A stretch of 45,114 nucleotides of DNA from an uncultured Spirochaetaceae bacterium (GTDB taxonomy: Bacteria > Spirochaetota > Spirochaetia > Sphaerochaetales > Sphaerochaetaceae). Shown piece by piece: positions 33,250-44,534 of this stretch. The stretch covers positions 1-45,114 of the forward strand of contig OMYY01000023.1 in the NCBI GenBank assembly GCA_900315435.1, in the 5' to 3' direction. The first letter of the stretch is position 1; each line of letters begins with the position of its first letter. The position numbers and the translations under genes are program-made. Under the pieces are notes generated by a model, which was given only the letters and a program-made list of their open reading frames with translations, ran no database searches and was not told where the DNA came from.

Positions 33250-33253
<4 letters not shown>
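31616..33253 (+). CDS. ppaC: Family II inorganic pyrophosphatase with CBS and DRTGG-like regulatory insert
   Basis: A 545-residue manganese-dependent pyrophosphatase (DHH family). GHRNPDMDS at 8-16, VDHNE at 309-313 and DHHR at 331-334 supply the metal and phosphate ligands; the DHHA2 domain fills the C-terminus (TLESHFAYERVSPHLFFLPGVLSRKKQLLP). Residues 60-300 are the insert of regulatory CBS-pyrophosphatases: a CBS pair (60-120 and about 245-300) around a DRTGG-like segment, expected to respond to adenine nucleotides. The mRNA appears leaderless. It overlaps metH by ATGA and so heads ppaC-metH-metF. It removes pyrophosphate, a by-product of SAM and nucleotide synthesis. Confidence 0.93.
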
Positions 33254-36695
<3,442 letters not shown>

Positions 36696-36699
<4 letters not shown>

Positions 36700-37649
36700 A
36701 AGTCATCGATATCCTTACCCGGGCCGACAAGCCAGTTTTCACTTTTGAGATTGTCCCTCCGCTACGTGGAGGGAGCGTCAAGGACGTCTGCGACGCAGTC
36801 GAGACATTGCTTCCTTTCCATCCCGCCTATATCAACATCACCAACCATCAGAGCGTGGTCGACTATGTGGAGCGCGAGGACGGGCTGGTGGAGAAGCATG
36901 TGATCCACAAGAGACCTGGCACGGTGGCGCTCAGCGCCCTCCTGCAATACACATACCATATCCCGGTGGTCAGCCATGTGATCTGTGGCGGCCAAAGTGC
37001 GGAGGAGATCGAGAACACCCTGATCGAGCTCCACTTCATCGGCATCGACAATGTGTTCGTGCTCCGGGGAGACCCTGCGGGAGGGCAGAAGCGCTTCATC
37101 GCCCAGAAGGGTGGCTGGAGCCATGCCACCGACCTGGTCCGGCAGATTGGCAATCTGAACCACGGCCACTATCTGGAGGAGAGCGTCAGGAATCCGGAAG
37201 CCACCGACTTCTGTATCGGAGTCGCCGGTTATCCGGAAAAGCATTCCGAGGCGGCAAACCTGGCGGACGACATCAGGCATCTCAAGGAGAAGGTGGACGC
37301 CGGCGCCTCCTACGTGGTCACCCAGCTCTTCTATGACAACCAGCGGTATTTCGACTTTGTCCGCGCGGCGCGAAAGGCTGGCATCACCGTACCGGTCATT
37401 CCCGGGTTGAAGCCGCTGGCAAGCCGCAAGGATCTGGAGACCATTCCGCAGACGTTCCATGTCGACATTCCCGAGGAGCTTGCCCGTCGCGTCCGCACTG
37501 CCGCTACGTTGAACGATATCCGCGAGGTGGGAATCCAATGGGCCATCGACCAGTCCAAGGAGTTGCTTGCCCACGAGGTGCCTGGCATCCACTATTACAC
37601 GGTGGGCAAGGCCAAGTTGGTGTCCGAAGTGGTCGGGGTGGTATTCTGA
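36696..37649 (+). CDS. metF: 5,10-methylenetetrahydrofolate reductase
   Basis: A 317-residue FAD enzyme reducing methylene-THF to methyl-THF, the substrate of MetH. FTFEIVPPLRGG near the N-terminus carries the catalytic Glu; NVFVLRGDPAGG, CIGVAGYPEKHSEA and YVVTQLFYDNQRYFDF are family blocks. Slightly longer than E. coli MetF. Its ATG overlaps the metH stop, so the two steps are coupled in expression, and glyA supplies the methylene-THF. The stop codon abuts the next promoter. Confidence 0.95.
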
Positions 37650-37678
37650 TTGCCCAAATGAGTAGGGTGGAGTATGGT
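37650..37678 (+). promoter_or_regulatory. Nucleotidyltransferase gene promoter
   Basis: TTGCCC, a 17-nt spacer and TATGGT, beginning one base after the metF stop, with 18 nt to the ATG at 37697 and AGGGAG as ribosome binding site. Confidence 0.5.
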
Positions 37679-37696
37679 GTCCGGTAGGGAGTGTCT

Positions 37697-38440
37697 ATGA
37701 TTGCTTTGGTGCTTGCCGCAGGCTATGCCACACGTCTGTATCCCCTGACCAAGGGGTTTCCCAAGCCGTTGTTGGAGGTGCAGGGGAAACCTGTGCTCTC
37801 CTGGTTGTTGGATGACCTGGAAACCATCCCTGGCATCGACGGGTATGTCATTGTCAGCAACCATGTGTTCTTGCCGTTTTTCCAAGAGTGGAGCAGGGAA
37901 CATCCTTTGCGGCGGAAGGTGACGATCCTTGATGACGGATCGACCGAGAACGAGAATCGCCTTGGCGCGGTGAAGGACATCCTCTTTTCCATCGACAGCC
38001 TTGGGCTGGACGACGACCTGCTGGTGCTTGCCGGTGACAACGTCCTGGAGTTCAGCCTGAAAAGTTTCGTCGACTATTTCCACCAGAAGAAGGCCAGTTG
38101 CATCCTGCGTTTTGAAGAGCGGGATCCAGAACGGCTGCGCCGTACGGGCGTGGCGGAGATCGACGCCGAGGGTCGTGTCCTGCGCATGGAGGAGAAACCG
38201 CAGGACCCGAAGAGCACCTGGGCGGTGCCGCCCTTCTACTGTTTCACGCGGGACGACGTCGGCCATCTGTCCGAGGCAATCGGACAGGGATGCAAGACCG
38301 ATGCACCGGGCTCCTTGGTCAGCTGGGCATGTGGCCGCTTTCCTGTCTGGGCCATGCGGATGCCGGCAGCCCGTTTTGACATCGGAAACCTGGAGAGCTA
38401 CAAGCAGGTCCAGAAGTGTTACCGGGGAATCCTCTGTTAA
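37697..38440 (+). CDS. Sugar-phosphate-type nucleotidyltransferase
   Basis: A 247-residue NTP-transferase with a Rossmann-like fold that joins an NTP to a phosphorylated sugar or alcohol with release of pyrophosphate. The nucleotide loop is ALVLAAGYATRLYPLTKGFPKPLLEV at residues 3-28; LLVLAGDNVLEF holds the metal Asp near 115, and RFDIGNLESY near the C-terminus the second one. AGGGAG five bases upstream favours the ATG at 37697 over the GTG at 37691. The substrate cannot be read from sequence; candidates are glucose-1-phosphate or phosphocholine-type partners. It appears to have its own promoter. Confidence 0.85.
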   Translation: MIALVLAAGYATRLYPLTKGFPKPLLEVQGKPVLSWLLDDLETIPGIDGYVIVSNHVFLPFFQEWSREHPLRRKVTILDDGSTENENRLGAVKDILFSIDSLGLDDDLLVLAGDNVLEFSLKSFVDYFHQKKASCILRFEERDPERLRRTGVAEIDAEGRVLRMEEKPQDPKSTWAVPPFYCFTRDDVGHLSEAIGQGCKTDAPGSLVSWACGRFPVWAMRMPAARFDIGNLESYKQVQKCYRGILC

Positions 38441-38462
38441 GGGAACCGACGGGGGTGAGGGC

Positions 38463-38491
38463 TGGACATGGCTAGGCATCTCTGATATGTT
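38463..38491 (+). promoter_or_regulatory. pyr operon promoter
   Basis: TGGACA (5 of 6), a 17-nt spacer and TATGTT with TGA just before it (extended -10). Transcription would begin near 38498, ahead of the leader peptide. Confidence 0.6.
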
Positions 38492-38516
38492 TGTTCGGAA
38501 ACAGGGGAGGGAGACG

Positions 38517-38576
38517 ATGGCAAGCAGAAGTCGTAATTCGTGGCATGCGAGTCGTTTCCCGTACTGTTTGCAATGA
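38517..38576 (+). CDS. Candidate pyr leader peptide
   Basis: A 19-codon reading frame, MASRSRNSWHASRFPYCLQ, with GGGAGGGAG as ribosome binding site, ending in TGA only 6 nt before the terminator hairpin upstream of pyrBI. A ribosome at the stop codon would cover the hairpin. The layout equals that of the pyrL leader of enteric pyrBI, where UTP shortage slows RNA polymerase so that the ribosome can prevent termination. The peptide itself has no known similarity; its role is in being translated. Confidence 0.6.
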   Translation: MASRSRNSWHASRFPYCLQ

Positions 38577-38582
38577 ATAGAT

Positions 38583-38611
38583 GAGCCGGCGTTGTCGCCG
38601 GCTCTTTTTTT
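38583..38611 (+). terminator. Attenuator terminator before pyrBI
   Basis: A perfect 9-bp GC stem (GAGCCGGCG with CGCCGGCTC), loop TTGT and seven T residues. It ends 14 nt before the pyrBI ATG; the binding site AAGGAGAAGG follows the T run. A terminator placed after the promoter and before the first gene implies regulated read-through. Confidence 0.93.
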
Positions 38612-38625
38612 GAAGGAGAAGGCAG

Positions 38626-40224
38626 ATGGAAGGAAAGAATGTCTTTGAGGCGCGCAGCCTGTGCGAGATCAATGATTTCTCGATAGAGGAACGCAAATAC
38701 CTGTTCGAGAAAACCCGGATTCTCAAGCGCGCGTTCGAGACGAACGACACCAAGACGATGGACGGGTTCCGGATTGGCGACAAGGATTTTGGCATCTACG
38801 AGGTCTTCCTCGAGAACAGCACCCGCACCAAGGAGAGCTTCCGCAATGCGGCCAATTTCCAACAGGTCAAGGTCGAGGAGCTGGATACCTCCACCAGCTC
38901 GATCAACAAAGGAGAGAGCTATGCCGATACCTTCCACATGCTCGGTGGCTTCCACAATTCGGTCTTCATCGTCCGCAGCAAGGTCGAGGGGCTGTGCCGC
39001 TGGCTCGAGATCGACAGCCGCCATTATAGCGAGCGCAACCACCTGAACTACCACATCTCCTTCGTCAACGCAGGGGACGGCAAGCACGAGCATCCCACCC
39101 AGGAGCTGCTCGACGAGTTCTCCTTCCTGGAGGACAACGGCTTTGACTACAGTCATCTGCATGTCGCCTTGATCGGCGACCTGTTCCACGGGCGTACCGT
39201 CCACAGCAAGGCCGATGGTTTGAAGTTGTTCGACCACGTGAAGGTCGACCTGGTCGCTCCCCCGGAGCTGGCCATGCCGGACAACTACGTGGAGGAGATG
39301 CGGGAGAATGGCTTCGAGATCCGTAGCTTCGGCTCGATCGAGGAATATCTGTCCCAGCCGGATATCAGCACCACCTGGTATTTCACCCGTCCGCAGCTGG
39401 AGCGCATGGGCGAGCAGGTGCTGGAGAAGATGGACCAGCTTCGTTGCGCCATCACCTTCCGCAAGGAGTTCATGGACAAGCTGAAGCCCGGCACCCATTT
39501 CTACCACCCGCTTCCCCGCCATAAGGAGCACCCGACCATTCCCACCTTCCTGGACGACACTCCGCTCAACGGATGGGAACGGCAGGCGATTAACGGCATG
39601 TATGTCCGTATCACGTTGCTTTCCCTGATTGGCGGAAAGATCGGCGGGGATTTCGTGCCTCCAGCCGAGAAGCCTGCGCCAGAGGAAAAGCCCTACATCG
39701 TCGAGGTCGACCTTTCCGGCAAGAGTGGCAAGCAGAAGGACTATAGCGAGGGAGTGCACCCGATCCGGAATGGTATCGTCATCGACCATATCGCCCGTGG
39801 CGACAGCCCGAGCGAGATCCGGGACCATATGCGCCTGATCTGCAGAGTGCTGCATCTTGACGACCTGAAGGGTGGCGACTGGATCAGCCAAGGCCACAGT
39901 GGCGAGACCACCTACAAGGGCATCATCTTCCGCCCGGATGCTCCGGAACTGGACCATAAGATGGTCAAACGCTTGGCGGCAGTCGCCCCAGGGTGTACGC
40001 TGAATATCATCAAGGACAGCAAGGTGGTGAAGAAGTACCGGCTCTACATGCCGCCACGCATCTACAACTTTGATGACCTGCAGTGCACGAATGACGCCTG
40101 TATCTCCCATCCGTCCCAGAACGAGGGAGTGCCGGCCATGTTCTACCGTACCGAGGACGGCAAGTTCCGCTGCGCCTATTGCGGCAAGACCCATTCGTAC
40201 AAGGAAATCTGGAAGAAGAACTGA
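38626..40224 (+). CDS. pyrBI: Aspartate carbamoyltransferase, catalytic-regulatory fusion
   Basis: A 532-residue fusion that makes carbamoyl aspartate. Residues 1-345 are the catalytic chain: STRT (65-68) binds carbamoyl phosphate, HPTQ is at 156-159 and PLPRH at 295-299. A linker of about 30 residues rich in Pro and Lys leads to a PyrI-type regulatory chain from about residue 375 (VHPIRNGIVIDHIARG), ending in a four-cysteine zinc site, Cys487, Cys492, Cys516 and Cys519, with the same spacing as E. coli PyrI. Nucleotide feedback control is therefore likely. AAGGAGAAGG precedes the ATG. pyrE follows 17 nt later. Confidence 0.95.
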   Translation: MEGKNVFEARSLCEINDFSIEERKYLFEKTRILKRAFETNDTKTMDGFRIGDKDFGIYEVFLENSTRTKESFRNAANFQQVKVEELDTSTSSINKGESYADTFHMLGGFHNSVFIVRSKVEGLCRWLEIDSRHYSERNHLNYHISFVNAGDGKHEHPTQELLDEFSFLEDNGFDYSHLHVALIGDLFHGRTVHSKADGLKLFDHVKVDLVAPPELAMPDNYVEEMRENGFEIRSFGSIEEYLSQPDISTTWYFTRPQLERMGEQVLEKMDQLRCAITFRKEFMDKLKPGTHFYHPLPRHKEHPTIPTFLDDTPLNGWERQAINGMYVRITLLSLIGGKIGGDFVPPAEKPAPEEKPYIVEVDLSGKSGKQKDYSEGVHPIRNGIVIDHIARGDSPSEIRDHMRLICRVLHLDDLKGGDWISQGHSGETTYKGIIFRPDAPELDHKMVKRLAAVAPGCTLNIIKDSKVVKKYRLYMPPRIYNFDDLQCTNDACISHPSQNEGVPAMFYRTEDGKFRCAYCGKTHSYKEIWKKN

Positions 40225-40241: not shown

Positions 40242-40925
40242 ATGGAAACGAGCAAGTTTGCGGAACTGTTGGCGAAAAAGGCGCTGGAAAATGGCGCGAT
40301 CAGACTGAACGCGGAAAATCCCTTTACTTGGGCGAGCGGCTACCGCATGCCGATCTACAACGACAACCGCCAGTTCCTGTATGACTGGCAGAGCAGGGCG
40401 ATGATTGCCGATGCCTTCACGCAGATGCTGACGGCTGATGCCTTCGACCCGGACAATATCGCCGGAACATCCACTGCCGGCATTCCCCATGCCACGACGC
40501 TTGCCGACAAACTGCACAAGTCGATGAGTTATGTCCGTTCCTCCAGCAAGGACCACGGCCTGCACCAGAAGATCGAGGGCCTGCATGATGGCGGTTACCA
40601 CCAGGCCTCCGTCCTCCTGGTCGAGGACCTGATTTCCACTGGAGGTTCCTCGATCGCCGCGGTGAAGGCGATTGTCGAGGCGGGAGGACGCTGTCCCTAC
40701 TGCTACGCGATCTTCACCTATGGGCTGGATGCCAGCAAGGAGAACTTCGCCAGTCTGGATCCGCCCTGCAAGGAAGAGACGATCCTGGACTATGATACGG
40801 TGCTGTTCTGGGCCGAGAAGACCGGCTACCTGACTTCCGGCCAGGTCAAGGTGCTTTCCTCCTGGAGGGAGGATCCGTTCGGGTGGGGTATAGCGCATGG
40901 CTTCCCGAAGGAGGAGAGGAAATGA
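40242..40925 (+). CDS. pyrE: Orotate phosphoribosyltransferase
   Basis: A 227-residue type I phosphoribosyltransferase joining orotate and PRPP to give OMP. The PRPP loop VLLVEDLISTGGSS is at 124-137; YVRSSSKDHGLHQKIEG (97-113) is the flexible catalytic loop, and FTWASGYRMPIYNDNRQ (28-44) the orotate-side segment. AAGGAGG precedes the ATG. The stop overlaps pyrF by ATGA. Confidence 0.93.
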   Translation: METSKFAELLAKKALENGAIRLNAENPFTWASGYRMPIYNDNRQFLYDWQSRAMIADAFTQMLTADAFDPDNIAGTSTAGIPHATTLADKLHKSMSYVRSSSKDHGLHQKIEGLHDGGYHQASVLLVEDLISTGGSSIAAVKAIVEAGGRCPYCYAIFTYGLDASKENFASLDPPCKEETILDYDTVLFWAEKTGYLTSGQVKVLSSWREDPFGWGIAHGFPKEERK

Positions 40926-41770
40926 ACTATACCGACCTGCTCCGGTCTTCCGCCCAGGAAACCGGGAACTGCACCTGCATGGGGCTTGATCCCCAGATGG
41001 CGATGCTCCCCGGAACAGGTTCCGGCCGCGCCCGCCTGAACCAGTTTTTCGGAACCCTCTTCAAGCGGATGCGCCAGACGGGGACGATTCCTGCCACCTT
41101 CAAGCCCAACATCGGCTATTGGTCGATCTTGGACCATCCCCGTGAGGGGGATTTTTCCGGCAGCGAGGCTTTGGTGGACGTGCTGGACATGCTGGAGACT
41201 TTTTTCCCTGGTGTGCCGGTCATTCTGGACAGCAAGCGGGGGGATATCGCCCGAAGCAGCGGGAACTATGCCAAAGAGGCCTTCGATTGCTGGAAGGCCG
41301 ACGCGGTCACCGTCGCTCCCTACATGGGTGGCGACAGTGTCGGGCCGTTTGTCTCCTTCGGCCAGGAGAAAGGCGTCTATGTCCTCTGCCGCACCAGCAA
41401 TCCCGGTGGCAAGGACCTGCAGAACCTGACTGTCGAGGGTGTTCCCCTGTACCTGGTGGTTGCGGACAAGATCCGCCAGTGGAAGGCGGGCGCGGTGGTC
41501 GGCGCCACCCATATGGGCGAACTGAAGGATATCGCCCGCTACTTTGCGGACCAACCGGTTCCCCTGCTGGTTCCTGGAGTCGGCAGCCAAGGTGGCAGCG
41601 CCCCTGAGGTGATGGCGGCGCTCAGGGAGGTTGGCTACGACATCACTTTGGTCCGCATCAACTCCTCCAGCGGCCTGACCCATCCGTGGAAGAGCGCTCC
41701 CGTCCCGGAAGACTGGGTGGACCAATGCCTTGGCGCCTTGCGCAAGCTGACAGGAGAGACTGCGGTATGA
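40922..41770 (+). CDS. pyrF: Orotidine 5'-phosphate decarboxylase, type 2
   Basis: A 282-residue decarboxylase producing UMP from OMP, of the longer type 2 subfamily. The catalytic D-K-D set is DSKRGD at 103-108; CMGLDPQMAMLPG near the N-terminus and CRTSNPGGKDLQNL are subfamily blocks, and VPGVGSQGG binds the phosphate. The ATG at 40922 overlaps the pyrE stop and follows AAGGAGGAG. Its stop overlaps the next gene by ATGA. Confidence 0.93.
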   Translation: MNYTDLLRSSAQETGNCTCMGLDPQMAMLPGTGSGRARLNQFFGTLFKRMRQTGTIPATFKPNIGYWSILDHPREGDFSGSEALVDVLDMLETFFPGVPVILDSKRGDIARSSGNYAKEAFDCWKADAVTVAPYMGGDSVGPFVSFGQEKGVYVLCRTSNPGGKDLQNLTVEGVPLYLVVADKIRQWKAGAVVGATHMGELKDIARYFADQPVPLLVPGVGSQGGSAPEVMAALREVGYDITLVRINSSSGLTHPWKSAPVPEDWVDQCLGALRKLTGETAV

Positions 41771-43473
41771 AGGTGATGGAGGTTCTGAGAGGAAATACCG
41801 GACGCATGCTGCTGTCCACCGTCAGCGGCGTGTCGTCGACCAAGGCGGGTTTGATCGAGTACTTCGACCAGGAGGTTCCCGCCATCGACATGATCACCAC
41901 CAAAAGCTTCCAGGTGGTGCCGACGGCAGGCAATCCTGAGCCGATTATCTGCGAACCGGAGACCGGCTCCTTCGGGAACTCGGTCGGACTCCGCAATATC
42001 GGAGCCAACGCGGCCTTCGCCGAGCTTGAGAAGCTCCGTAGGAAAGGACTGAGGTGTCTGCTCGACGTCTCGCTTGCGGCCAAGAGTCCCGAGGACTTCA
42101 TCTCGTTGGTGAAAACCTTCCGTCCGGTGGCCGACCTGCTGGAGCTGAACTTCTCCTGCCCCCATGCGGCTGCCGGTTTCGGGGCGTCGATCGGTACGAG
42201 CGCAGAGGTCGCCAGCGCCTATGTGCGGAGCATCCGTCAGGCAATCCCCGATTTGGAGATTCCGCTGTTCGTCAAGTTGACCCCGAACGTGGAGGACATC
42301 GGTTCCATCGCCAGGGCTGTGGTCCAGGCGGGAGCCGATGGCATCACCGCCATCAACACGGTGGGACCTGACCTGTATATCGAGCCACATGCCCACGAGC
42401 CCATCCTGCAGAACCAGCTTGGAGGCAAGGGGGGCAAAAGCGGTCGTTGGGTCTTTGACGAGGCTGTCGGAAAGATTGCCGAAATCCGGAAGGCGGTAGG
42501 TCCCGACGTGCCGATCATCGGCATGGGTGGTGTCGATGACGGACAGAAGGCTGCAAGGATGATGCAGGCGGGAGCGAACATCGTCGGACTCGGCTCCGCT
42601 TTGGCCATGGTCAACCAGCGGCAGTGGCCAGAGTATCTCTCGTTGGTCAAACGCGAGGCCCAGGAAATCCTGGACGGAAACCTGCCGGAGAGGAGCGCCA
42701 GGAGTTTTCTCCGGCGCGAGGACCGGATGGCCTACAAGCCCTATCGGGTGGTGAAGCGCGAGCAGTATGGGGAGGATATCGTCATTCTTACTTGCGACCA
42801 CAAGCTGGACAGTCAGGCCGGCGAGTTCGTCTTCCTCTGGCTCCCTGGTGTCGGGGAGAAGCCTTTCAGCGTCGCAGGTACCGATCCCTTGAGTTTCATC
42901 ATCAAGAAGCGCGGGAAGGTGACCAAGGAGATTTTCAACCTTCAGGAGGGCGACGAGGTGATGGTGCGGGGCCTGTATGGAGCCCCTGTCGCTGTCAAGC
43001 ACGCAAAGCGGGCCTTGGTGATTGCCGGTGGCACCGGGGTCGCGGTACTTCCTATGCTGGTCCGAAGGCTGAAAGACGAGGGGACCGAGGTGACGATGCT
43101 GGTGGGTACCAGTGTCAGCGTCGAGGGTCCTGCCCTCCTGGAGAAGGAGCTCAGCCCGTATGGACCGTTTACCTGTGTCGCCGATGACGGGAAGCCGGGG
43201 AGAGTGCTTGATTTGCTTGATTCCATGACGATTGACGGGAAGACGGCGGTTTATCTGATTGGCCCGGAGGTCTTCATGTCCATCGCTTGCAAGCTTCTGT
43301 TGCGGAAGGGAGCCAGCGAGGAGATGATCAGTCTCAGCATGGAGCGCATGACCCGCTGTGGCGTCGGTCTGTGCGGCGAGTGTGTCTGCGGCCATCGTCT
43401 TGCCTGCCAGTGGGGCACTTTCATGGACTACTCCTACCTGAAGGCCAACGCGCCGAGCCTGTTGCGCCTATGA
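41767..43473 (+). CDS. pyrDK: Dihydroorotate dehydrogenase, PyrD-PyrK fusion
   Basis: A 568-residue fusion of the two subunits of class 1B dihydroorotate dehydrogenase. Residues 1-305 are the FMN-containing PyrD part with the catalytic Cys131 in ELNFSCPH and IPLFVKLTPN. Residues 320-568 match PyrK: an FAD segment near EKPFSVAG, the NAD-binding GGTGVAVLPML (421-431) and a C-terminal [2Fe-2S] motif CGVGLCGEC with Cys531, Cys536, Cys539 and probably Cys547. It should pass electrons from dihydroorotate to NAD+. The last cluster ligand is closer than in separate PyrK proteins. The PyrD part is slightly unusual in its N-terminal region. ATGA overlaps join it to pyrF and pyrC. Confidence 0.9.
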   Translation: MKVMEVLRGNTGRMLLSTVSGVSSTKAGLIEYFDQEVPAIDMITTKSFQVVPTAGNPEPIICEPETGSFGNSVGLRNIGANAAFAELEKLRRKGLRCLLDVSLAAKSPEDFISLVKTFRPVADLLELNFSCPHAAAGFGASIGTSAEVASAYVRSIRQAIPDLEIPLFVKLTPNVEDIGSIARAVVQAGADGITAINTVGPDLYIEPHAHEPILQNQLGGKGGKSGRWVFDEAVGKIAEIRKAVGPDVPIIGMGGVDDGQKAARMMQAGANIVGLGSALAMVNQRQWPEYLSLVKREAQEILDGNLPERSARSFLRREDRMAYKPYRVVKREQYGEDIVILTCDHKLDSQAGEFVFLWLPGVGEKPFSVAGTDPLSFIIKKRGKVTKEIFNLQEGDEVMVRGLYGAPVAVKHAKRALVIAGGTGVAVLPMLVRRLKDEGTEVTMLVGTSVSVEGPALLEKELSPYGPFTCVADDGKPGRVLDLLDSMTIDGKTAVYLIGPEVFMSIACKLLLRKGASEEMISLSMERMTRCGVGLCGECVCGHRLACQWGTFMDYSYLKANAPSLLRL

Positions 43474-44534
43474 TTGACCCGCACGTACACCTGAGGGATG
43501 GCAGCCAGGCGTCCAAGGAGACACTCGTCCACGGTCTTTCCGTGGCCAGTTTCATCGGGGACCAGTGGCTTTTCGACATGCCCAACTGCGATCCCCCTTT
43601 GACCAGCAGGGAGGCGATTGTCCGTCGTCTTGAGAAGGCCGCTGAGGCAATCGCCATTGTCGGAACGCAGACGGGTCGGGATATCCGCTACAGTCTGTAT
43701 GCGGGTCTGACCAGCGATGACGCGGAAATCCGGATGGCGATCGATGCCTGGAGGGAGCTTTTCCCCCATGTCGTGGGACTCAAGCTGTTCGCAGGAAACT
43801 CGACAGGCGGCATGGGACAGGTAACGGAGCCGCAACAGCGCCATATCTACGAGCAGTTGGCCGGAAATGGCTTTGATGGGGTGCTTGCCGTCCATTGCGA
43901 GAAGGAATCCCTGTTGCATCCCGGGCTGGAGAGGTCCGAGGATTTCTCCACCCACAGCGATGCCCGTCCGGTGGAAGCCGAGATCGAGAGTGTCCGTGAC
44001 CAGATTCGTCTGAGTGGCGAGGCTGGTTTCCCGGGAACGCTCCATATCGCCCACGTCTCCACCATTGAGGCGGTGGAGCTTGTGGAGCAGGCACGTGCGG
44101 CGGGAAGACGGGTCACCATGGGGGTCACCCCCCATCATCTGCTCCTTGACCGGGAGATGGCTAGGAACCAAACACGTTTTGCCAAGATGAATCCGCCGTT
44201 GCGAAGTTCCGGGGAGCGGATGCGGCTCTGGCAAGCGGTGCTGGAGGGAAGGATCGACTGGGTCGAGACCGACCACGCTCCGCATACGCTCGAGGACAAG
44301 CGGAAAGGGGCGAGCGGTATCCCTGGCTTTTGCGGGGTTTTGCTCCTCTTGCAACGGCTGAGGAAGGCAGGGGTGTGCGAGGAGAGGTTGAAGGACCTTT
44401 TCGGGAGAAATGTGCTGAAGGCTTTCAAGCTGGAGCCGGTTTCCATCACTCTGCCAGGAGCAGAGGAGACGGAGGAGCTGGCTGCCATGGCGGCGAGCTG
44501 TTATCCGTTTGACAGCTATCAGGGACTGGAATGA
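43470..44534 (+). CDS. pyrC: Dihydroorotase
   Basis: A 354-residue amidohydrolase closing carbamoyl aspartate to dihydroorotate. IDPHVHLRDG carries the first metal histidines (His5, His7), GLKLFAGNS the carboxylated lysine, AVHCEKE and LHIAHVS further metal histidines, and TDHAPHT the catalytic Asp. ATG overlaps the pyrDK stop; there is no other ribosome binding site of note. It is the last pyr gene; no convincing terminator is visible in the 99 nt before the next start. Confidence 0.94.
   Translation: MIDPHVHLRDGSQASKETLVHGLSVASFIGDQWLFDMPNCDPPLTSREAIVRRLEKAAEAIAIVGTQTGRDIRYSLYAGLTSDDAEIRMAIDAWRELFPHVVGLKLFAGNSTGGMGQVTEPQQRHIYEQLAGNGFDGVLAVHCEKESLLHPGLERSEDFSTHSDARPVEAEIESVRDQIRLSGEAGFPGTLHIAHVSTIEAVELVEQARAAGRRVTMGVTPHHLLLDREMARNQTRFAKMNPPLRSSGERMRLWQAVLEGRIDWVETDHAPHTLEDKRKGASGIPGFCGVLLLLQRLRKAGVCEERLKDLFGRNVLKAFKLEPVSITLPGAEETEELAAMAASCYPFDSYQGLE

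Follow-up and report, generated by a model that had tools for sequence, protein, structure and literature searches.

Attenuation via PyrR is the commonest form of pyrimidine (pyr) operon control outside the enterics, and in Bacillus and others it relies on a premature terminator within the operon leader. In Escherichia coli, rph-pyrE is subject to attenuation modulated by uridine triphosphate (UTP) at an intrinsic terminator just past a translated frame, which in that case is the full gene rph. In the pyrL leader of E. coli, the polymerase pauses when UTP is limiting, which allows a ribosome to block the terminator (PMC10135430, PMC5021804). The enteric pyrL-pyrBI arrangement studied by Turnbough and colleagues comprises a promoter, a Shine-Dalgarno (SD) sequence, a short open reading frame (ORF) that reaches the terminator, a U-rich segment and an intrinsic hairpin with a T run shortly before pyrB, and it involves no dedicated regulator. 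The same set of elements precedes the pyrBI-E-F-DK-C operon in a stretch of 45,114 nucleotides (nt; contig OMYY01000023.1, hereafter the window) from an uncultured Spirochaetaceae bacterium. We estimate the probability that this whole operon is under UTP-sensing transcription attenuation of the pyrL-pyrBI type, coupled to the ribosome, at roughly 0.85. Compared to E. coli pyrL, the system resides in another phylum, has a leader ORF of 19 instead of 44 codons with its stop before the hairpin, uses a promoter with an extended -10 and precedes an operon of six functions in which pyrBI and pyrDK are fusions. It differs from rph-pyrE in that the translated frame is a small, dedicated ORF under a promoter of its own, and from PyrR attenuation in that a leader ORF takes the place of the binding loop and a PyrR gene is absent. 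With the trp/his-type attenuators it shares the leader ORF and the coupling of ribosome and transcription, but not the regulatory codons or an antiterminator overlapping the terminator.

All features described below lie on the forward strand. The sigma-70 type promoter (TGGACA-17-TATGTT, 38463..38491) consists of TGGACA at 38463-38468 and TATGTT at 38486-38491, the latter extended by a TG at 38483-38484, and it is the single promoter-like site in the surrounding 1.8 kb (37600-39400), for which shuffled sequences averaged 0.4. A scan of the pyr operon interior revealed no further promoter-like sites, and a UTP-dependent stuttering start was not recognised at the leader promoter, no search having been aimed at one. 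Downstream we find the leader SD GGAGG (38506..38510), apparent from the sequence and from the SD match in the family comparison, followed by the 19-codon ORF (MASRSRNSWHASRFPYCLQ plus TGA; 38517..38576, with the ATG at 38517 and the TGA at 38574-38576). The end of the ORF overlaps a pyrimidine/U-enriched tract (38551..38582), the presumed UTP-sensitive pause region. The attenuator hairpin GAGCCGGCG-TTGT-CGCCGGCTC (in RNA GAGCCGGCG-UUGU-CGCCGGCUC; 38583..38604) has a perfect stem of 9 base pairs (bp), 8 of which are GC, and is followed by the T7 run of the intrinsic terminator (38605..38611) and the pyrBI SD AAGGAG (38613..38618). Sequence and promoter scan thus returned the promoter, the 19-codon frame with its ribosome site, the 9-bp hairpin, the T7 run and the pyrBI start each where the initial annotation had placed them, and the gap between leader stop and hairpin in the window is indeed the 6 nt it had reported.

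The host genome (2.8 Mb) groups with Sphaerochaeta, Bullifex and Ornithospirochaeta as Sphaerochaetaceae-like, and the pyrBI of the closest named relative, a Spirochaetales metagenome bin, is 95% identical to that of the window. We traced pyrBI in 115 of 120 related genomes (E-value <=0.001, some matches being weak and partial) and added 80 named contigs. The upstream regions compared amounted to 118 distinct spirochaete pyrBI leaders, which were thinned on the basis of shared 8-mers to a non-redundant set of 83. An intrinsic terminator was located within 130 nt of pyrB in 110 of the 118. An ATG or GTG preceded by an SD was accepted as the start of a leader frame if the frame had at least 10 codons and came within 8 nt of the hairpin or extended past it. 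Such a frame was present in 67 of the 83 non-redundant leaders, against 11.4 (standard deviation 3.2, maximum 22) in 100 dinucleotide shuffles. When only the SD decided on the start, without regard to the frame, 67 of 73 reached the hairpin, against 25.2 (standard deviation 3.6) after shuffling. Because hairpin-reaching frames far exceed those in the shuffles, the leader frame is under selection. The start codon lies at a median of 73 nt before the hairpin in the relatives (57-90 for the 10-90% range), and the promoters recovered from 68 leaders read TtGACA / extended TATnnT, with a TG before the -10 in 51 and the -10 ending at a median of 23.5 nt before the leader start.

The encoded peptides share no sequence or motif among relatives. 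The position of the stop codon varied as well: for 68 leaders it was found 8 to 0 nt before the hairpin in 32, inside it in 15 and past it in 21, likewise to the pyrL frame of E. coli, which runs through the attenuator. A stop at exactly 6 nt before the hairpin is therefore rejected as a family rule, given that stops span -8 to +77 nt; this spacing is a detail of the genus and the constant feature is a frame that reaches the hairpin. The comparative test proposed in the initial annotation is consequently passed: frame, U-rich tract, hairpin and T run are all retained by relatives, and only the exact stop-to-hairpin distance is not. The tract itself is U-rich and G-poor throughout the family, T reaching a peak of about 53% at positions -15..-11 relative to the hairpin (controls 27%, P=1.8e-8). 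These controls were 31 other terminators from the same loci, before which the T content is flat at around 27%.

Amino-acid starvation attenuators and arrest peptides, in which stalling at particular codons or at a nascent-peptide motif sets the hairpin, classically have this layout of a leader ORF followed by a terminator, and phenylalanine (Phe) is in fact the most frequent residue within the last ten codons. TTT/TTC triplets in the tract, however, showed no preference for the reading frame (86 in the frame of the ORF, 91 and 114 in the other two). Selection on the tract therefore acts on its nucleotides rather than on Phe codons, and attenuation by Phe codons is rejected. Considering in addition the lack of a common peptide motif, and the fact that the conserved helix described below joins the SD to the tract instead of providing an antiterminator over the 5' arm of the terminator (the scan for pairing is around zero at the hairpin), we regard stalling by codon or peptide as very improbable. 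The prevalence of PyrR control outside enterics, together with the strong folding of the leader (z -3.9 to -5.3), could point to an attenuator that binds PyrR or another ligand (a protein, or an aptamer for uridine monophosphate or UTP), the ORF being incidental. Yet no PyrR gene (NF003549) over cut-off was detected in the own genome or in the 72 other sampled family members, for which reason PyrR control was discarded; the model exceeded its cut-off in 3 of the 120 sampled genomes, all outside the family. An Rfam search of the leader returned no family at gathering score, the sub-threshold matches being mostly terminator-bearing small RNAs. Moreover, the coding sequence enclosed by the helix arms is unconserved and varies in length, and an incidental ORF would not have stayed open as far as the hairpin in 67 of the 83 leaders, which makes a ligand-RNA attenuator very unlikely. 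The hairpin might, finally, simply terminate the upstream nucleotidyltransferase gene, which ends at 38440, only 143 nt 5' of the hairpin (38583), with the pyr promoter further down and the ORF arisen by chance. Against this stand the lack of a second promoter-like site in 37600-39400, the location of the hairpin 18-30 nt 5' of pyrB in most relatives despite differing upstream contexts, and the control terminators, which show neither the U-tract nor an excess of hairpin-reaching leader ORFs (4 of 31). Such a plain terminator is hardly credible. It is the U-tract, the absence of a Phe frame bias, the unconserved peptide, the variable stop and the lack of PyrR and of an Rfam family that lead to the match with the pyrL type. 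The comparison, with its hairpin-reaching frame, U-tract and terminator, thereby supports the attenuation in the style of enteric pyrL-pyrBI that had been proposed at the outset, a mechanism that we infer.

A helix between the leader initiation region and the tract is newly seen here and was absent from the initial annotation. In the window, the initiation-region arm GGGAGACGAU (38509..38518), made up of the SD end, the spacer and the AU of the start codon, forms a 10-bp helix with the anti-initiation arm GUCGUUUCCC (38551..38560), which is positioned at -32..-22 from the hairpin, as in the relatives. Both minimum-free-energy and centroid structures add an outer pairing, seen in this leader, of AAACAG (38499..38504) with CUGUUU (38564..38569). 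The transcript 38498-38611 folds far better than shuffled versions (z = -5.3) because 38509-38518 pairs with 38551-38560. According to the predicted folds, the initiation site is open in an RNA that extends to 38550 (z -0.2) and closed in one that extends to 38582 (-29.5 kcal/mol, z -3.9).

Covariation of the two arms was evident among 61 independent leaders, in which the initiation region pairs better with the own tract than with the tracts of other leaders (z=9.5, 0 of 2000 permutations); a stricter set of 37 leaders gave z=7.6. In a scan of window pairs, the signal was limited to the combination of -13..+8 relative to the leader start with -35..-14 relative to the hairpin (z 3.5-9.3); the two highest cells scored 9.3 and 8.1, and the cells outside this region ranged from -2.5 to 2.4. 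The fraction of SD nucleotides paired with the tract was 0.62, against 0.38 after shuffling of the tract (P=4e-9). As a control, the pyrB SD displayed no preferential pairing with the tract (z=-1.2), by which sequestering of the pyrB ribosome site by the tract is rejected, nor with its own early coding sequence (z=-1.2). The 87 further loci of the class were mostly terminator-less or already sampled, and the 22 with terminators contained few usable leaders, so that swap tests within clades were used in place of a hold-out set. In disjoint pairs of related leaders the own partner won 39:7, 27:5 and 13:4 by similarity class, as exemplified by L103 and L109, with CCGGAU x AUCUGG versus UUCAGAU x AUCUGAA. 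Because own partners beat swapped ones even among related leaders, shared ancestry does not explain the helix.

The following scheme could account for these observations. With ample UTP, the polymerase would clear the pyrimidine-rich leader end before any ribosome, the hairpin would form and the T run would end transcription. When UTP is scarce, the polymerase would be slowed in the tract and a ribosome on the 19-codon frame would close up. Positioned at or near the stop codon, we infer, this ribosome would mask the 5' arm of the hairpin and thereby permit read-through into pyrBI. The peptide sequence would be irrelevant, as the frame need only extend to the hairpin. The helix may add a gate to this race: the stretch 35-15 nt before the hairpin would, once out of the polymerase, pair with the leader initiation region and close the site, such that a ribosome is useful only if loaded early and slow, UTP-limited transcription holds the gate open. 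Around 14 nt of nascent RNA are buried in the polymerase. A polymerase delayed in the U-tract would still cover part of the arm and leave the leader site open, and a fast polymerase would free the arm and close it, which would sharpen the race between ribosome and polymerase.

The odds that the helix indeed gates ribosome loading are roughly even. Within the same attenuator it might instead act as a pause hairpin that holds the polymerase in the U-tract, in trp/his style, for a median of 21 nt separates the end of the anti-initiation arm from the hairpin and the first ~10 nt after the arm are U-rich, which approximates the spacing of a hairpin-stabilised pause. Such a hairpin would not, however, need the initiation region (-13..+8) as its specific covarying partner, other windows scoring around zero, and the loop between the arms measures 32 nt in the window. 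For E. coli pyrL, neither an effect of NusA on pausing nor a compensatory rescue was seen, although the local hairpin examined in that study was another one (PMC9291695). We consider a pausing role rather unlikely. Much the same standing is given to a role in clean-up, in which the helix has no part in the decision and would only later keep the leader RNA silent or stable (sparing ribosomes, warding off nucleases): the predicted fold has the helix persisting in the finished leader RNA, but the place of the arm just 5' of the U-rich stretch, with its almost constant distance to the hairpin, would then be left unexplained.

Several observations weigh against UTP-sensing attenuation with a leader gate. 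The tract of the window is only moderately U-rich, containing 6 T among the 20 positions from -25 to -6 of the hairpin, where the median of the relatives is 9 and the control terminators have 5. A long ungapped helix was formed in only 32 of the 61 leaders, and leaders taken singly attain only modest significance (p<0.05 in 15 of 61); the case for the helix is statistical because individual leaders are often weak. Since ribosomes rarely catch the polymerase within the first 100 nt (PMC4824070), this short leader would require a pause. A terminator was not recognised in 8 of the 118 leaders, nor before pyrBI in many deeper spirochaete families (f6, f8, f20, f29, f38, f43 and most of f26; L224-L283). 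By this distribution, the attenuator is the rule in the family of the window and in some others, and confined to part of the Spirochaetia. Three members of the class (G080, G078 and G103; L152-L154) possess a true PyrR over cut-off, which suggests that the type of control was switched within the class. Four bins labelled Clostridiales, Ruminococcaceae or Clostridia (L082, L090, L095 and L104) contain a pyrBI that is around 65% identical to that of the window, the first three also with the same leader type; either mislabelling or transfer may be responsible.

Outside the spirochaetes, the minimum-energy fold of the E. coli pyrL leader contains a helix of CGGGAGGA with UCUUCCCG over the leader site, and equivalent helices of 10 pairs were found in the leaders of Klebsiella and Proteus, with 10 perfect pairs in Ilyobacter. 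Single-leader P values in other phyla amounted to 0.03-0.6, and to 0.03-0.17 for the set of E. coli, Klebsiella, Proteus and Ilyobacter, so the extension of the helix to the enterics is suggestive. The Ilyobacter leader resides on a plasmid of I. polytropus (L196, 280-450), where a 56-codon ORF annotated as hypothetical precedes pyrB at 498. The ribosome site of this ORF, AGGUAGAAAA, is perfectly complementary to the downstream UUUUCUACCU, and a terminator-like hairpin stands before pyrB. On sequence grounds the ORF is a candidate pyrL in Fusobacteriota. Tentatively, and at somewhat under even odds, the arm by the pause tract that shuts the leader ribosome site could represent a general second sensor in UTP-sensing pyr attenuators, in which UTP sets the time window for loading, in spirochaetes, enterics and perhaps fusobacteria.

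The operon behind the attenuator starts with pyrBI (38626..40224), a fusion of the catalytic and regulatory chains of aspartate carbamoyltransferase, which scored 798.2 bits with NF009916 (cut-off 800) and over cut-off with TIGR00670. It continues with pyrE (orotate phosphoribosyltransferase, 40242..40925), pyrF (orotidine-5'-phosphate decarboxylase, 40925..41770, TIGR02127 over cut-off), the pyrDK fusion of dihydroorotate dehydrogenase and its electron-transfer subunit (41767..43473) and pyrC (dihydroorotase, 43470..44534). The gene ends overlap or stand close together, and the gene assignments bear out the order pyrBI-E-F-DK-C given originally. On the 5' side of the attenuator (33250-37649), inspection of the translations pointed to a metH-like methionine synthase and a metF-like methylenetetrahydrofolate reductase. 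The carA leaders of the own genome and of relatives (L166 and other carA loci) contain several TTGCATAA(ATATGCAA)-like repeats that resemble ARG boxes, and they lack a pyr-type attenuator. The same control for carAB as for pyrBI is rejected, as the carA leader of the own genome lacks such an attenuator and has ARG-box-like TTGCATAA repeats; carAB may accordingly be regulated in an ArgR-like manner, as E. coli P2 is.

We encountered no earlier report of such attenuation in spirochaetes in the open literature, from which subscription journals are mostly missing. The covarying initiation-site helix constitutes a concrete, mutable element, and it bears on the question of coupling, namely how a ribosome arrives early enough on a leader of <100 nt to beat the polymerase to the terminator, for which E. 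coli pyrL is a standard test bed and directly usable. Taken on the comparative sequence evidence, the pyrL-type attenuator is real and conserved in a phylum new to it, has a covarying helix at its initiation site and probably responds to UTP. It would place regulator-free, UTP-sensing attenuation in the Spirochaetota, before a complete pyrimidine operon.
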